A stretch of DNA of 64,000 nt. It comes from Pseudomonas sp. A-RE-19 (GTDB lineage: Bacteria > Pseudomonadota > Gammaproteobacteria > Pseudomonadales > Pseudomonadaceae). The stretch covers positions 1 through 64,000 of the forward strand of contig NZ_JAHBDQ010000024.1 of assembly GCF_019956555.1 (NCBI RefSeq). Reading direction: 5' to 3'. The position numbers were made by a program, and so were the translations under genes. The notes beneath the pieces were generated by a model. The model did not search any database and was not told the origin of the DNA. It saw only the letters and a list, made by a program, of their open reading frames with translations. This document shows positions 37,082-53,699 of the stretch, one piece after another. Each line of letters opens with the position of its first letter. The stretch's first letter is position 1.

Positions 37082-37375
37082 GGCGGCCTCCTGGAAGACC
37101 CGCAGCAGCCGGCATAGACCGACCGACACCTGTTTTGACTTTCAAACCGGCCCCGAGTGCCAGAGTCGCCGGCCTCTCAGATCAGCGGCCGTTCATCTAC
37201 GGTGCATAGACAGGTGCCTATGCACCATGACAAGGCAGCAGATGCCGCTCGTTTATCTCTCCTCTTTCCTCCATGCCCCCAGCCAGAGCGCTCAAGCCGA
37301 CTTGGCACGGCTCTCGCTTAGACAAAGACGTGCAGGAGTCATCACAGGTTCGCGGCACCACAATTTGCAATGGCT
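37082..37375. other. Intergenic region upstream of guanidine riboswitch
   Basis: No convincing gene. It must contain the divergent promoters of the lipoprotein gene and the guanidine operon; I could not assign hexamers confidently. Confidence 0.4.
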
Positions 37376-37466
37376 GACTAGGGTTCCGGCTCGCAATCGC
37401 GAGTGGCTGGTCCGAGAGTTGGCGACCTCCAGTTGAGGTTACACGGCGGGACAAAAGCCCGGGAGA
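37376..37466 (+). promoter_or_regulatory. Guanidine-I (ykkC) riboswitch
   Basis: The conserved blocks of the guanidine-I aptamer occur in order: CTAGGGTTCCGGC (37378-37390), GGTCCGAGAG (37409-37418), a hairpin CGACCTCCAGTTGAGGT, and ACGGCGGGACAAAAGCCCGG (37443-37462) ending GGGAGA. It lies 64 bases before the first gene of the carboxylase operon, in the same direction. In known cases guanidine binding turns the downstream genes on. A TTCG-loop hairpin (CACCGTTCGCGGTG) follows. Confidence 0.93.
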
Positions 37467-37529
37467 CAAGCCACCGTTCGCGGTGCCGCTGCCTTCCTGT
37501 CCGCCCTTGATCAACTGGAGAACCATCCC

Positions 37530-40964: not shown

Positions 40965-41618
40965 ATGTCACTCGCTATCACCACCGCTGCCGTTACTACA
41001 AACAGGCAACCAGAAACCGCGATCTACCGCGCTACCATCCCCGCCGGCGAACCGTGGCTGATGGAGGTCAAGGCCGGCCAGACGTTGCGCATCCTCGACC
41101 TGGAAGGCAATCAGGCCGTCGACACTTTGTTCTACAGCCTCGCCAATCCCAAGGAGCGCTATGACGTGCAGCGCACGTTGCGTCGGCAGAACAGCGTCTA
41201 CCTGAGCACCGGCAGCGTGCTCTATTCCAACCTCGGCAAACCGATGCTGACCATCGTCGCCGACACTTGCGGGCGTCACGACACCCTCGGCGGGGCCTGC
41301 GCGCAGGAGAGCAACACCGTGCGTTATGCGCTGGAGAAACGCTACATGCACAGCTGTCGCGATAACTACCTGCGCGCCTGTGTCCACGATGGTCGGCTGA
41401 GCAAGGTAGACATCGGGCCGAACATCAATTTCTTCATGAACGTGCCAGTGACGGCCGACGGCGGCCTGACCTTCGAAGACGGGATTTCGGCGCCGGGCAA
41501 ATACGTCGACCTGCGGGCCGAGATGGACGTGATCGTGCTGATCTCCAACTGCCCGCAACTGAACAACCCATGCAACGCCTACAACCCCACCCCTGCGGAG
41601 CTACTGGTATGGAACTGA
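40965..41618 (+). CDS. DUF1989 protein, carboxyguanidine deiminase subunit (UAAP2-type)
   Basis: A 217-residue paralogue and likely partner of the preceding gene, 11 bp downstream. [19 protein letters not shown] and [16 protein letters not shown] are typical of the family. The conserved Cys/His residues are consistent with a metal site. Confidence 0.88.
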
Positions 41619-41924
41619 AACTCGCGCGTTTGCGGCGGTGGTTGTTTGCCCTGTGCCAGGCCCGCTCCGGGCAGTGCATCAAATAGAAGAACACCCTCAA
41701 TCCAATGTGGGAGCGAGCCTGCTCGCGATGGCGTCAGCACATTCACCATTGATGTCGACTGATACACCGCTATCGCGAGCAGGCTCGCTCCCACAGGGGT
41801 TCGGTGGCGTTTTGACGTGAACTGATTCTGCCGCCGGGGACGACCTCGGCGCCTATCGAAAAACTGCGGGACGGCCCGCATCCCAAGTCGAGGCTGATGC
41901 GTTATCGCCTCCAGGGGTTATGCC
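41619..41924. other. Intergenic stretch with REP pair
   Basis: 306 bases between the second DUF1989 gene and the carboxylase. The only structure I see is the REP doublet at 41706-41795; frames across it are not credible genes. Confidence 0.6.
41706..41795. repeat. REP pair (REPIN), type GGGAGCGAGCCTGCTCGC
   Basis: Inverted arms starting TGTGGGAGCGAGCCTGCTCG and ending CGAGCAGGCTCGCTCCCACA, separated by about 40 bases. The same REP type occurs inside the downstream gene. Confidence 0.9.
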
Positions 41925-44900
41925 ATGTTCGAAAAAGTCCTCATTGCCAACCGTGGCGCCATTGCCTGTCGCATCTTGCGTACCTTGGGTGAATTGCAGG
42001 TCAAGGGTGTTGCCGTTTACTCCGAAGCCGATGCCGCCAGCCTGCACATCCTGCAAGCCTTTGAGTCCCACAGCCTCGGTGAAGGCGCCGCCGCTGGCAC
42101 TTATCTGGCGGTCGACAAAATCCTTGCCATCGCAAAAGCCACTGGCGCCACTGCGATCCATCCCGGCTACGGCTTTCTCTCGGAAAACGCCGCATTCGCC
42201 CAAGCCTGCGAAGCCGCCAACATCGCCTTCATCGGCCCCACACCGGAGCAGCTGCGGGTGTTCGGCCTCAAGCACACCGCTCGCGCATTGGCCAGGCAAC
42301 ACGGCGTGCCGATGCTCGAAGGCACCGAGCTGCTCGATAGCCTCGACGCAGCGTTGATCGCAGGCGAACAGGTCGGCTACCCGGTGATGCTCAAAAGCAC
42401 CGCCGGCGGTGGCGGCATCGGGATGCGCGTGTGCCGCAACGCCGGCGAATTGAGCGAATCCTTCGACGCCGTCAAACGCCTCGGGCAGAACAATTTCAGC
42501 GACGCTGGCGTGTTCATCGAGAAGTACATCCAGCGCGCCCGACATCTGGAAGTGCAGGTGTTCGGCGATGGCCAGGGCGAGGTGCTTGCCCTCGGCGTGC
42601 GTGACTGTTCGGTGCAGCGACGCAACCAGAAAGTCCTTGAAGAAACCCCGGCCCCTAACCTGCCCGAGGGCATGGCCGAAGAACTCTGTACAGCGGCAAT
42701 CAAACTGGCCAAAGCGGTGAATTACCGCAGCGCGGGCACTGTGGAGTTCGTCTTCGACAGCGATGCCCAGCGCTTCTATTTTCTGGAAGTGAATACCCGC
42801 TTGCAGGTGGAACACGGCGTCACTGAACAAGTGTGGGGCGTGGACCTGGTGCGCTGGATGGTGGAGTTGGCGGCCGGTGATTTGCCGCCGTTGCGCGAGT
42901 TGAGTCAGGGATTGAAAGCCAACGGTCATGCGATTCAGGCACGCCTCTATGCCGAAGATCCGGGCCGGGATTTCCAACCGAGTCCAGGTCTGCTCACTGC
43001 CGTCAATTTTCCCGTTGCCGATGGCCAACACCTGCGCATCGACACGTGGGTCGAGGCCGGTTGCGAGATCCCGCCGTACTTCGATCCGATGATCGCCAAG
43101 GTCATCAGCTGGGCGCCGACTCGCGAAGAAGCCCGCGTCGATCTGCATCAGGCTCTGGGCGACAGCCTGCTGTACGGGGTGGAAACCAACCGCGATTACT
43201 TGCGGCAGATTCTGCTCGATACGCCGTTTGCCAGCGGCCAGCCGTGGACCCGTTGCCTGGAAGCTCTGATCTATCAAGCCAACACCTTTGAAGTGCTCAG
43301 CGCCGGCACGCAGACCAGCATTCAGGACTTTCCGGGACGCCTCGGTTACTGGGCGGTGGGCGTGCCGCCGTCGGGGCCGATGGACAGTCGGGCGCTGCGT
43401 CTGGGCAATCGCTTGCTGGGTAACGATGAAGGTGCAGCGGCGCTGGAAATCACCATGAGCGGGCCGTTGTTGCGCTTCAATTGTGATGCGGTGGTGGCTG
43501 TCACGGGGGCGGTGATTGCGGTGATGCTGAACGGTGAAGCAGTGCCGATGAATACCGCATTGCTGATCCCCGCCGGGGCCGCTTTGAGCTTCGGCACCCT
43601 TGGCGGTGCAGGCGCACGCAGCTATCTGTGCCTGCGCGGCGGCCTGCAAGTGCCGGATTATCTGGGTAGCAAAAGTACGTTCACGCTGGGTCAGTTTGGC
43701 GGGCATGGCGGTCGTGCGTTGCGAGCGGGTGACGTGTTGCATGTGCCTGCTTTGATCGACCGCAGCAACGGTCAGCAACTGGCTGAAGAACAGGTCACCG
43801 AATTGCCTGCCATACGCCAGATCAGGGTGATCTACGGTCCACATGGCGCACCGGAATACTTCAGCGAAAACTACATCGGCACCTTCTTCGCGACCCAGTG
43901 GGAAGTGCATTTCAATTCCAGCCGAACCGGCGTGCGGTTGATCGGGCCCAAGCCTGAATGGGTGCGAGCCGATGGTGGCGAGGCCGGGCTGCATCCGTCG
44001 AACATTCATGACAATCCGTACGCGATTGGCGCGGTGGATTTCACCGGTGACATGCCAGTGATCCTCGGCCCCGATGGCCCGAGCCTCGGTGGGTTTGTCT
44101 GCCCGGTGACGGTGATCGAGGCGGACCTTTGGCAGCTGGGGCAGCTCAAGGCTGGGGACAAGGTTCAGTTTCACCCAGTCGACCTGAAAACCGCCCGCCA
44201 ACTCGCCTTGAAATGGGATTCCTGTGGGAGCGAGCCTGCTCGCGATGAAGTTGATGCCGTGTCTGATCTGGCCCCATCGCGAGCAGGCTCGCTCCCACAG
44301 GGGGTTGCGTCGCCTGTGGTGTTGGATTTGGGTCAGGACGACACGAGACTGGTTGCAAGATTGTCGGGCGACACTCATTTGTTATTGGAAATCGGTGCCC
44401 CCGAACTGGATCTGGTCCTGCGCTTTCGCGCTCACGCGTTGATGCAGGCATTGGAAAGCAAACATCTGCACGGCGTGATCGACCTGACACCGGGCATCCG
44501 CTCGCTGCAAGTTCACTACCAACCCGAACAACTGCCGCTGGCCGATCTGCTGGGCATTGTTGCCGGTGAATGGGACGCCGTGTGCGCCGCCAAGGACCTG
44601 CAAGTGCCCTCGCGCATCGTCCATCTGCCCCTGTCCTGGGATGACCCGGCCTGCCAGTTGGCGATCGAAAAATACATGACCACGGTGCGCAAGGACGCGC
44701 CCTGGTGCCCGAGCAATCTGGAGTTCATCCGCCGCATCAACGACCTGCCGAACCTCGACGAAGTGCAGCGCACGGTGTTCGACGCCAGTTATCTGGTGAT
44801 GGGCCTGGGCGATGTTTACCTCGGCGCACCGGTCGCCACCCCGCTCGATCCTCGGCATCGCCTGGTAACGACCAAGTACAACCCGGCCCGCACCTGGACC

Positions 44901-45566
44901 GCGGAAAACTCGGTGGGCATCGGCGGCGCCTACATGTGCGTGTACGGCATGGAAGGCCCCGGCGGTTATCAGTTCGTCGGCCGCACCTTGCAGATGTGGA
45001 ACCGCTACCGTGAGGTTGCAGCGTTCGACGGCAAGCCGTGGCTGCTGCGCTTCTTCGACCAGATCCGGTTCTACCCGGTGAGCGCCGATGAACTGCTGCG
45101 CATTCGCCGGGATTTCCCGCTTGGGCGCTTTGATCTGAACATCGAACACAGTCAGCTGAATCTGGCGGATTACCAGGCGTTTCTGGCCAAAGAAGCCCAG
45201 AGCATCGCGGCATTTCGGGATCAGCAAAAAAGCGCGTTCAACGCCGAGCGTGAGCGCTGGATCGCCAGCGGCCAAGCGCATTTCGACAGTGAAGAACTGG
45301 CTCCGGAAGTGACCGAAGAGGCACCGTTAGCCGACGGTCAACAGAGCGTCGACAGCCACATTGCCGGCAACCTCTGGCAGGTTCAGGTGCAGGCTGGCAG
45401 CCGGGTCGCTGCTGGGGATGTGCTGGTGATTCTGGAGTCGATGAAGATGGAAATCCCGCTGCTCGCGCCCATGGCGGGCGTGGTGCGCGAGATTCGCGTG
45501 CAACCGGGTTCGGCGGTGCGCGCCGGGCAACGTGTGGTGGTGCTGGAACTCGACTCAAGCCATTAA
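41925..45566 (+). CDS. Biotin-dependent guanidine carboxylase (urea carboxylase family)
   Basis: A 1213-residue ATP- and biotin-dependent carboxylase. Domains in order: biotin carboxylase, residues 1-450 (MFEKVLIANRGAIACRI; EVNTRLQVEHGVTEQVWG); an AHS2/KipA-like carboxyltransferase half from about 456 (SAGTQTSIQDFPG); an AHS1/KipI-like half from about 800 to 1020 (KYNPARTWTAENSVGIGGAY); and a C-terminal biotinyl domain (ESMKMEI, Lys1174). Urea carboxylases share this layout; the guanidine riboswitch and the two DUF1989 partners favour guanidine. Residues about 766-793 (SCGSEPARDEV...SLPQGV) are the translation of a REP pair inserted in frame between the two carboxyltransferase halves. The frame stays open, so the enzyme may still work. 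Confidence 0.93.
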   Translation: MFEKVLIANRGAIACRILRTLGELQVKGVAVYSEADAASLHILQAFESHSLGEGAAAGTYLAVDKILAIAKATGATAIHPGYGFLSENAAFAQACEAANIAFIGPTPEQLRVFGLKHTARALARQHGVPMLEGTELLDSLDAALIAGEQVGYPVMLKSTAGGGGIGMRVCRNAGELSESFDAVKRLGQNNFSDAGVFIEKYIQRARHLEVQVFGDGQGEVLALGVRDCSVQRRNQKVLEETPAPNLPEGMAEELCTAAIKLAKAVNYRSAGTVEFVFDSDAQRFYFLEVNTRLQVEHGVTEQVWGVDLVRWMVELAAGDLPPLRELSQGLKANGHAIQARLYAEDPGRDFQPSPGLLTAVNFPVADGQHLRIDTWVEAGCEIPPYFDPMIAKVISWAPTREEARVDLHQALGDSLLYGVETNRDYLRQILLDTPFASGQPWTRCLEALIYQANTFEVLSAGTQTSIQDFPGRLGYWAVGVPPSGPMDSRALRLGNRLLGNDEGAAALEITMSGPLLRFNCDAVVAVTGAVIAVMLNGEAVPMNTALLIPAGAALSFGTLGGAGARSYLCLRGGLQVPDYLGSKSTFTLGQFGGHGGRALRAGDVLHVPALIDRSNGQQLAEEQVTELPAIRQIRVIYGPHGAPEYFSENYIGTFFATQWEVHFNSSRTGVRLIGPKPEWVRADGGEAGLHPSNIHDNPYAIGAVDFTGDMPVILGPDGPSLGGFVCPVTVIEADLWQLGQLKAGDKVQFHPVDLKTARQLALKWDSCGSEPARDEVDAVSDLAPSRAGSLPQGVASPVVLDLGQDDTRLVARLSGDTHLLLEIGAPELDLVLRFRAHALMQALESKHLHGVIDLTPGIRSLQVHYQPEQLPLADLLGIVAGEWDAVCAAKDLQVPSRIVHLPLSWDDPACQLAIEKYMTTVRKDAPWCPSNLEFIRRINDLPNLDEVQRTVFDASYLVMGLGDVYLGAPVATPLDPRHRLVTTKYNPARTWTAENSVGIGGAYMCVYGMEGPGGYQFVGRTLQMWNRYREVAAFDGKPWLLRFFDQIRFYPVSADELLRIRRDFPLGRFDLNIEHSQLNLADYQAFLAKEAQSIAAFRDQQKSAFNAERERWIASGQAHFDSEELAPEVTEEAPLADGQQSVDSHIAGNLWQVQVQAGSRVAAGDVLVILESMKMEIPLLAPMAGVVREIRVQPGSAVRAGQRVVVLELDSSH
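44221..44301. repeat. REP pair inside a coding sequence
   Basis: Inverted arms CCTGTGGGAGCGAGCCTGCT and AGCAGGCTCGCTCCCACAGG surround about 30 bases. The 81-bp unit is a multiple of three and is read through in frame by the carboxylase gene. It matches the REP type at 41706-41795. Confidence 0.92.
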
Positions 45567-45581
45567 AAAAGGATTATCGCC

Positions 45582-47360
45582 ATGAACATCAATCTGCAAC
45601 TCGACGCCCTGCGCAACGCTTACCGTGACGGCAGCACTACGCCTCGGCAACTGCTGCTGAGCCTGCGGGAAAAAGCCGCGGCACTGAACCCGGACTATCA
45701 CCTGTTCATCCATTTGCTCAGTGCCCTGGAACTGGAACCGTACTTCGCCGCACTCGACGGTCGCGACCCAGGCAGCCTGCCGCTGTACGGCGTGCCGTTC
45801 GCGATCAAGGACAACATCGACCTGGCGGGTATTCCCACCACGGCAGCGTGTCCTGCGTTTGCCTATGTGCCGGAACGCTCGGCAACCATCGTCGAGCAAC
45901 TGCTGGCGCTGGGTGCGATTCCGTTGGGCAAGACCAATCTCGACCAGTTCGCCACTGGCCTCAATGGCAGCCGCTCGCCGTACGGCGCTTGCCCGAACAG
46001 CGTGTTGCCGGAGTATCCGTCGGGCGGTTCCAGCGCCGGGTCTTCCCTGGCGGTGGCGCTCGGCGTGGCGAGTTTTTCACTGGGCACGGACACGGCAGGC
46101 TCCGGTCGCGTGCCGGCGGCACTGAATAATCTGGTCGGTTTGAAAGCCAGCAAAGGGCTGATCTCCACTGCCGGTGTGGTTCCGGCCTGTCGAACGCTCG
46201 ATTGCGTCACGACCTTCACCGCCACGGCCCGGGAAGCCAGTCAGTTGCTCGCCCTCACCGCTCATCTCGATCCACGGGACGAATACAGTCGCCGTAATCC
46301 GCTGTGGAATGACGGCTCGGCCTTCGGCACACCGCGTCCATTCCGTTTCGGTGTACCCCGTGCGCAGGATCTGGCGTTCTTCGGCTGTCCTGAAGGCCCG
46401 TTGCTGTTCGGCGACGCCATCGACCAGCTCAAAGCCATGGGCGGCGAAGCGGTCGAACTGGATTTGTCTCCATTTCTCGAAGCCGCGCGGTTGCTCTACG
46501 AAGGGCCGTGGGTAGCGGAGCGTTACAGCGTGGCCGGCGAGTTACTGGAGCAACACCCTCAAGCCGTGCTGCCGGTGATTCGCGCCGTATTGGCCAAGGC
46601 CCCAGCGGTGACCGGCGTGCAGACCTTCCGTGCCCAATACCGTCTGCAGGCCTTGAAAGTGCTGTGCGACAAAGCCCTGGAAGGCCTTGATTGCGTGGTC
46701 ACGCCAACCATCGGCCGCGCGGTGACACTGGCCCAGCTTGCGGCCGAACCGGTGCTGCGCAACTCGGAACTGGGCTACTACACCAACTTCATGAACCTGC
46801 TCGATTACGCCGCCGTCGCAGTGCCCAGCGGATTCATGGGCAATGGTTTGCCATGGGGCGTGACATTGTTCGGCCGCGCGTTTACCGATCAGTATCTGTT
46901 GAGCGTGGCGGATGCCTTGCAACGTCAGCAAGGGTTGGCCGTGCCTGCGCCGACGAATGTTGCGCGCAATGATCGCGCACGGCTGGTGGTCTGCGGCGCG
47001 CACCTGGATGGGCTGGCGCTGAACTGGCAGCTCAAGCAGCGTGGAGCCCGTTTGCTCGAAGCCACTCACAGTTCCCCCGACTATCAGCTGTATGCCTTGG
47101 CCGGTGGCCCACCCTATCGCCCGGGCATGGTCCGAGTGAAGGAAGGTGGCGCGGCAATTGCGGTAGAAGTATGGGAGTTGCCAAGCAGTGAGTTGGGCTC
47201 GTTCCTGACCGCAATTCCGGCGCCGCTGGGGTTGGGCAAGGTGCAACTGGCGGACGGGCGGTGGGAGAGCGGGTTTATCTGTGAGCCCTACGGCCTGGAG
47301 GGGGCGGTGGATATCAGTCATTTGGGCGGGTGGCGGGCGTATCTGAACGATCGGCGTTGA
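45582..47360 (+). CDS. atzF: Allophanate hydrolase
   Basis: A 592-residue amidase-signature enzyme that splits allophanate to ammonia and CO2, the last step of guanidine (or urea) breakdown. Catalytic Lys in VPFAIKDNIDLAG, Ser pair in YPSGGSSAGSSLAVALG. A C-terminal domain (about 460-592) of the AtzF type is present. It lies 15 bp after the carboxylase. Confidence 0.95.
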   Translation: MNINLQLDALRNAYRDGSTTPRQLLLSLREKAAALNPDYHLFIHLLSALELEPYFAALDGRDPGSLPLYGVPFAIKDNIDLAGIPTTAACPAFAYVPERSATIVEQLLALGAIPLGKTNLDQFATGLNGSRSPYGACPNSVLPEYPSGGSSAGSSLAVALGVASFSLGTDTAGSGRVPAALNNLVGLKASKGLISTAGVVPACRTLDCVTTFTATAREASQLLALTAHLDPRDEYSRRNPLWNDGSAFGTPRPFRFGVPRAQDLAFFGCPEGPLLFGDAIDQLKAMGGEAVELDLSPFLEAARLLYEGPWVAERYSVAGELLEQHPQAVLPVIRAVLAKAPAVTGVQTFRAQYRLQALKVLCDKALEGLDCVVTPTIGRAVTLAQLAAEPVLRNSELGYYTNFMNLLDYAAVAVPSGFMGNGLPWGVTLFGRAFTDQYLLSVADALQRQQGLAVPAPTNVARNDRARLVVCGAHLDGLALNWQLKQRGARLLEATHSSPDYQLYALAGGPPYRPGMVRVKEGGAAIAVEVWELPSSELGSFLTAIPAPLGLGKVQLADGRWESGFICEPYGLEGAVDISHLGGWRAYLNDRR

Positions 47361-53194: not shown

Positions 53195-53699
53195 CGAGGC
53201 GCGTCTTTTAAACAGGGCGAACACTTGCTAATGCTTCAAGAGAAAATTAACACCAACATCGCCCCATAGAGCCGACTACCCAGCCAAAACACAGAAGACC
53301 GTCAGTTGATTCCTCAATGACTTGTCAGAAGTAAACATGCTTGGAATTGCGCGTTTAAAAACACCCGCTGTTACCTCAAATAGCCTACGAAACCTTGTGC
53401 CAATGCCTACGACTGAGACAGAATCCGCCGGCTTGTACGGCTATGGGGCGGCCTATATCGTTTTACCTGTCACTGAAAAACAGTGATCGGGTTTGGTAGC
53501 CCGTCTGTAATAGCCGTATGGCAACACCTTATGCAGTCTCTATTTTTGGGGACTCAGCTTTATATGGTGGTCATGCGTGGGGCTCCTTTGCGAGCGCCGG
53601 GTTTCCTATTGCAGCCGGTCTACCAACCCGCGTATGGCCGCCACCCTCGTTTGGTAGCGAGAGTGATGGCTCCTTAAAATCTGCAGTAGGAGTTCATCT
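53195..53699. other. Non-coding region with structured leader of DUF6124 gene
   Basis: 505 bases. The first 270 show nothing. From about 53468 there are hairpins: CACTGAAAAACAGTG, then GGGTTTGGTAGCCC (53487 onward), whose inverted partner CCGGTCTACCAACCC occurs near 53620, and GTTTGGTAGC again near 53650. A frame at 53518-53775 (MATPYAVSIFGDSALYGG) overlaps the next gene and is probably not a protein. TAGGAG precedes the DUF6124 start. Confidence 0.5.

Follow-up and report, generated by a model that had tools for sequence, protein, structure and literature searches.

How does a REP doublet come to be read in frame as part of an enzyme, and what becomes of it once it is there? The question arises from a 64,000-nucleotide stretch of Pseudomonas sp. 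A-RE-19 DNA (hereafter the window), in which such a doublet lies inside a carboxylase gene.

A REPIN translated as a carboxylase linker

The gene (41925–45566, forward strand) encodes a urea/guanidine carboxylase of 1213 amino acids with the domain order BC - CT_A_B - linker - CT_C_D - BCCP. It matches the urea carboxylase model TIGR02712 at 1888 bits (cut-off 1304) over nearly the full model length, with all domains present. Pfam places the two carboxyltransferase halves at residues 478–751 (CT_A_B) and 812–1031 (CT_C_D), which convert to bases 43356–44177 and 44358–45017 of the forward strand, and the repeat unit (44221–44301, codons 766–793) is located in the linker that joins them. The unit is a perfect inverted repeat of two 27-nt arms, 100% complementary and spaced by 27 nt. 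Its left arm (44221–44247, forward strand) carries the class A core GAGCGAGCCTGCTCGCGA and reads (S)CGSEPARD(E); the spacer (44248–44274, forward strand), which belongs to the 53-class described below and lies in forward orientation, reads (E)VDAVSDLA(P); and the right arm (44275–44301, reverse strand), the exact reverse complement of the left, reads (P)SRAGSLPQ(G). The arm starts with GTRG, has the palindromic core GTGGGAGCGAGCCTGCTCGCGAT, and is one base from PF10 and one base from PF8 as listed in the class table of PMC3686654. The reading frame runs through the unit without a stop. The unit is a REPIN (REP doublet) translated in frame as the carboxylase linker, and the first-pass annotation was right to describe an in-frame 81-bp REP doublet here.

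The arms belong to an abundant family. The 18-mer core of the arm has 780 exact copies in the genome (reversed control, 0), and its 22-mer occurs four times in the window, each time exactly although up to three mismatches were allowed, and never in 100 shuffles. Among the seven REP classes that we counted, class A is the commonest in this genome, which also contains three matches above cut-off to the Y1 transposase family (PF01797, Y1_Tnp). The repeat stretch is predicted to fold strongly as RNA (-65.9 kcal/mol, z = -9.3). In an AlphaFold model of the carboxyltransferase region built with 28 close sequences (mean pLDDT 55.7), the REPIN residues (326–352 of the model) score below 50; because conserved parts do so too, we draw no inference from the model on these residues.

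In the 464 kb of the A-RE-19 genome that we sampled (400 kb plus the window), REP clusters were screened by open reading frame and codon usage. Three of the 33 clusters fell within candidate reading frames, the carboxylase scoring highest; judged by eye from their translations, the other two are spurious antisense frames. A translated REP doublet in a true gene is therefore rare in this sample of the genome, with one cluster of 33 judged to lie within a real gene, which upholds the earlier view that REP pairs are mostly found outside genes. Within the same 464 kb we found no spread into many unrelated genes of the kind seen for Rickettsia palindromic elements.

The neighborhood of the gene points to guanidine as the substrate. 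A guanidine-I riboswitch lies upstream in the gene group (37367–37467, forward strand; Rfam) and a guanidine-II riboswitch shortly before the start of the carboxylase gene (41832–41879, forward strand; Rfam). A UAAP2 gene (urea amidolyase associated; 40965–41618, forward strand) precedes the carboxylase, and an allophanate hydrolase gene (45582–47360, forward strand) follows it. Riboswitch control, UAAP2 and allophanate hydrolase are thus all present, in the layout that passages of PMC12186494 give for guanidine carboxylase operons with their UAAP and allophanate hydrolase genes. Because of this match, the enzyme is probably a guanidine rather than a urea carboxylase, and by the same operon layout the UAAP2 product would be a putative carboxyguanidine deaminase subunit. 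A second REPIN of the same class occupies the intergenic region upstream of the carboxylase gene (41707–41794, no strand assigned) and ends less than 40 bp ahead of the guanidine-II aptamer. Elsewhere in the window, positions 53560–53648 (forward strand) match the C4 antisense RNA at 70.4 bits. Since C4 is an immunity RNA of phage type, there may be prophage DNA close to that end of the window.

One slot, many residues

We searched 398 Pseudomonas genomes for the carboxylase and obtained matches in 218. Our linker table comprises 130 loci, 30 from a first search (the A-RE-19 locus included) and 100 more, and since these are mostly the best-scoring of the 218 matches, the sample leans to relatives of the window. 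The matches outside this table include a separate set of 33 genomes; ten of that set's 30 loci were left out, six of them (L189, L191, L194, L197, L198, L205; carboxylases 47–50% identical) because they lacked the anchors and four (L181, L200, L204, L208) because they yielded no linker. Linker lengths were taken from two slightly different anchors, so that the 130-locus table counts four more residues than the later sets.

A palindrome score of at least 14 was reached by 97 of the 130 homologous linkers and by 2 of 390 equal-length control windows of the same genes; among 80 named loci, 45 passed the same threshold. All 29 of the nearest loci (L010–L038) passed, each with a REP-type inverted repeat at the same place. 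This rules out a recent single insertion peculiar to A-RE-19, and comparison with close homologues, which the first-pass annotation had proposed as a way to find an insertion boundary, leads instead to occupied sites. The nearest repeats often differ from one another in REP class, spacer, length or spacer orientation. The earlier idea of a repeat turned protein linker thus keeps its core, a translated REPIN in an open gene, and loses the picture of a single insertion whose site would stand empty in close strains. That homologues might all carry identical residues had been raised as well; the slot is common to them and the residues differ.

The flanking anchors align across loci and the middle residues differ in most species. 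The A-RE-19 linker reads CGSEPARDEVDAVSDLAPSRAGSLPQG, and other loci read CGSWLASD...SLASQLPQ, CGSELARD...SRASSLPQ, CGSGLARE...SRASPLPQ and others still. These differing residues are translations of different REP classes. In other clades, REP variants with the core GAGGGAGCTTGCTCCC occupy the linker in L089, L090, L095, L096 and L110; in L121 the unit lies in the opposite orientation; in L091 it is translated in another frame (WEPGLPAM); and L122 holds another repeat, read SPLPLGEG...PSPQPSPKGRGG. A different inverted repeat, translated in frame as SPLP..GEG...QPSP..GRG, thus occupies this linker in other Pseudomonas (L122, L259, L265, L266, L275, L276 and L281). Tandem in-frame REPIN units, free of stops, fill linkers of 147–339 residues in L185, L193, L195, L196, L202 and L250. 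Linker length ranges from 41 residues (L207) to 339 (L195), and L129–L136 have linkers of 60–67 codons without a strong palindrome. Of the 130 loci, 68 allowed both arms to be measured, and in 50 of these the 22-nt arms are identical. The slot appears to have taken up a REPIN long ago and to remain permissive, still admitting palindromic repeats.

Arms, spacer and reading frame

If the slot is old, what sets the class of repeat that it holds? We counted seven REP classes in 75 genomes, taken from the 82 loci L009–L090 with L037, L060, L062, L078, L085, L087 and L088 left out, as were all of L091–L138; both genomes and classes were chosen after the linkers had been seen, and abundant classes outside the seven were left uncounted. 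A linker was typed by the exact 18-mer of its right arm or, failing that, of its left arm, which succeeded in 71 of 75 loci and failed in 4, and the linker's own copies were subtracted from its genome's counts. The linker class was the commonest of the seven in its own genome in 44 of 71 cases (43 when the left arm was typed first), compared with a mean of 14.0 and a maximum of 27 in 2000 permutations and with 45.0 expected if each linker were drawn at random from its own genome's pool. The mean share of the linker class in its genome was 0.505, against 0.194 under permutation and 0.509 for a random draw. In every one of the 71 cases the class also occurred elsewhere in its genome (absences under permutation: mean 9.4, minimum 3). 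To take shared ancestry out of the comparison, we then used species pairs of differing class whose connecting paths share no branch of a tree built from the carboxylase flanks. Every one of the 30 independent pairs fits its own pools (p = 1.9e-9); the fit is weak in four (log odds below 0.6), and L072/L073 agrees only by a hair. By these counts the REP type of the linker behaves like a random draw from the pool of its own genome. Counting against the overwriting proposed below, class E arms (L011, L029, L043) and the class C unit of L048 rank third to fifth in their own pools. The genome of L048 (G214) retains this class C REPIN with one other class C copy, possibly the fossil of a lost REP population.

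Overall, we consider it likely that the linker is a permissive slot in coding sequence, in which the REP population of the genome overwrites the resident arms where they stand and the products are filtered for reading frame. The arms themselves are of one class in 50 of the 51 loci typed on both sides, and a few mixed-class units (L070, L030, L081) resemble intermediates.

The spacer between the arms bears on a different account, repeated fresh insertion, in which transposases would place new REPINs or other repeats, arms and spacer together, at a tolerant or preferred site, displacing or succeeding earlier ones. In 31 of the 68 two-arm loci the arms stand 53 nt apart over versions of one spacer sequence (the 53-class). 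A search of the 75 genomes for this spacer, allowing up to three mismatches, yielded 19 hits spread over 18 genomes, and all but one of the hits (G327, contig 14) fall inside carboxylase match intervals; since the search recovered 18 of 29 typed 53-class loci and missed 11 diverged ones, diverged copies elsewhere could be missed in the same way. Over this near-private spacer sit arms of class C (12 loci), A (7), A' (4), E (3) and B, D and F (1 each), and spacer identity is similar between loci of different arm core (0.826) and of the same core (0.836). The spacer is thus retained as the arms change, which argues against fresh insertion. Restricted to 53-class loci, 11 of 11 independent pairs still agree with their own pools, one by a hair. 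Against that, the linker class is the commonest in its own genome in 15 of 29 such loci, where a draw would give 16.3.

The 53-class spacer lies forward in 12 of the 31 loci and reversed in 19, both orientations being seen only between species. The calls are clear, with 23–31 of 31 positions matching in the chosen orientation for 30 loci (21 in L119) against 7–13 in the other. The tree requires a minimum of 8 flips, a number that stays the same when weakly supported branches are collapsed and is close to that of shuffled tips (9.9), and both orientations are translated, as DEVDAVSDLAPS and GARSDTASTSS. Spacer classes (53 forward, 53 reverse and 65) change 24 times on 63 tips, compared with 26.5 after shuffling, and because they switch in this way, overwriting of arms is insufficient on its own and replacement of whole units must occur too. 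Frequent switching, the resemblance of 65-class spacers to ordinary spacers of the genome pool, the tandem in-frame units and the presence of different repeat families in the same linker of other clades all speak for fresh insertion.

Against it stands the reading frame as well as the retained spacer, for the codon phase of the left arm is the same in all 68 two-arm loci. The distance between arm starts is 2 mod 3 in 67 of these (the exception, L113, measures 39). Twenty other head-to-head units of the A-RE-19 genome have distances of 66 (12 units), 65 (5), 64 (2) and 60 (1), so 5 of 20 are 2 mod 3. Fisher's test of 67/68 against 5/20 gives p = 7e-12, a value that is too small because related loci are not independent. 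We regard repeated fresh insertion as unlikely, if still worth weighing. The frame pattern looks like what a frame-blind process followed by selection would leave. In L180 and L199 the gene halves flanking the repeat are in different frames, a possible natural loss of the enzyme; L206 cannot be judged.

Interspecies horizontal exchange of carboxylase alleles could also mix linker types, and the tree gives it some footing. At least 39 class changes are needed on 71 tips, nearly as many as in 300 shuffles (mean 44.9, minimum 37), and 36 remain after branches with support below 0.95 are collapsed; changes of spacer class are likewise close to the shuffled number. Since the tree follows one gene, through the carboxylase flanks, rather than the species, allele exchange could inflate the switch count. 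Imported alleles should, however, mismatch the pool of their recipient, and yet all 30 pairs agree with their pools and no typed class is missing from its genome, which makes exchange an improbable explanation of the linker classes.

The intergenic REPIN at 41707–41794 had been intended as a negative control for persistence, a use it did not serve, for it has persisted too. Among 20 relatives, two recognized arms are present in 16, one in 3 and none in 1, so at least one arm remains in 19 of 20. Its class varies among relatives and can differ from the one found in the carboxylase gene next to it (G100 has class A at the intergenic slot and class D in the gene). Because the intergenic slot persists likewise, the gene is set apart not by a kept position but only by the keeping of frame and by translation. 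As far as these two slots show, a place kept while the class changes would be a feature of REPINs rather than of the gene.

This bears on the proposal that hairpin or peptide is maintained by selection for a role in co-translational folding, mRNA stability or linker geometry, with selection for pairing driving the paired arm changes. The inverted repeat in every one of the 29 nearest loci, the many units with identical arms and the strong RNA fold are what it would lead one to expect. Persistence of the intergenic unit speaks against a selected role of protein or mRNA as what keeps the repeat in place; minor effects are still conceivable, given the very stable RNA hairpin. Linkers without a strong palindrome (L129–L136), the span of lengths from 41 to 339 residues, the other frame in L091 and the reversed unit in L121 also count against such a function, and selection for pairing does not predict a match to the genome's REP pool. 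We hold this explanation to be very improbable. Vertical descent of an old insertion changed by point mutation alone would account for a slot common to much of the tree, but near relatives differ at several positions and in both arms at once, and the paired class switches already contradict it; together with an assembly artefact, which the first-pass annotation had also considered and which is very unlikely given that the repeat recurs in numerous independent genomes, a fair share of which are complete and in one contig, it deserves next to no credence.

Proposed in-place renewal of REP populations

How might overwriting in place proceed? Resident arms would be overwritten by the REP classes common in the genome, and either RecA-type gene conversion or the action of a cognate RAYT nuclease on existing REPs is a candidate for this step. 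The second arm would then follow the first, through copying templated by the hairpin or through a second conversion, restoring the palindrome; template switching within a hairpin has been proposed for coding palindromes in a part of PMC6649704. Exchange or crossing over between the inverted arms may flip the spacer, and at times the entire unit would be replaced or multiplied. Selection would act chiefly by removing products that break the frame or carry a stop. If overwriting proceeds in this way, the encoded residues would be largely a by-product of REP evolution rather than a selected sequence. Extending this beyond the one gene, we are inclined, with some reserve, to think that REP populations renew themselves in place after a class switch, arm by arm around the old spacer and with occasional flips, coding copies included.

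Much of the background to this reading is established. REPINs of fluorescent pseudomonads are described in sections of PMC3116915, and the classes PF1–PF22, together with the 'orthoswitch' at RAYT genes, in sections of PMC3686654. The unit studied here shares their anatomy, classes and high copy numbers, in a genome with Y1-transposase genes; by the class table of PMC3686654, our classes B, D, A', C and F correspond to PF8, PF9, PF11, PF14 and PF4, the GTGGCGAGGGAGCTTGCTCCC type to PF17, and class A is close to PF10. The model set out in that paper has old REPs stay in place and decay once an orthoswitch has happened, although its conclusions leave room for new variants to replace some of them. 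Here, by contrast, the class borne by the resident copy at one fixed place differs between species, and the copy is coding. The carboxylase locus thereby suggests how replacement works, in that resident copies take on other classes.

REPs within open reading frames were reported for several species in a GTAG/CGTC survey, which suggested flexible linkers as harmless sites (passages of PMC3733652). The main text of that survey has no match for 'urea' or 'carboxylase', its gene list being in the supplement, and turnover at one orthologous slot, as seen here, is absent from its passages on intragenic REPs. Rickettsia palindromic elements are likewise palindromic repeats translated in frame (parts of PMC10969869 and PMC6649704). 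According to a section of PMC6649704 they are spread over many unrelated genes and their arms grow less alike over time, whereas here a single slot in one gene holds arms that are mostly identical and switch class. In nematomorph mitochondria, genes contain perfect inverted repeats whose two arms change in concert (PMC6649704, same section); unlike the linker unit, these palindromes are described there without a genome-wide donor family of repeats and without spacer flips. The mechanisms by which REPs disseminate and change are called unknown in a passage of PMC3686654.

Among the matches listed in the open-licence literature, titles and the beginnings of abstracts named neither REPs in this gene nor class switching at a fixed coding site. 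Higgins et al. reportedly asked, in a 1988 review title, about REP evolution by gene conversion, the idea being that conversion homogenizes REPs; what the carboxylase locus adds to that idea is a near-private spacer that can serve as a marker for testing conversion. REPINs, their classes, class switches at RAYT genes, intragenic REPs and the linker argument are already known; for turnover at a coding slot, no report stood among the listed matches.

A frame-locked copy whose spacer is nearly absent elsewhere, at the sensitivity of our search, is a natural barcode with which overwriting can be told from re-insertion. In many Pseudomonas species a DNA parasite appears to have repeatedly overwritten a segment of a protein that looks intact. 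If in-place renewal is the right reading, this protein segment would evolve in concert with hundreds of non-coding repeats rather than by descent. That would amount to concerted evolution between a protein linker and a genome-wide repeat population, and would be a reason for care in interpreting such residues as selected or in using them as strain markers.
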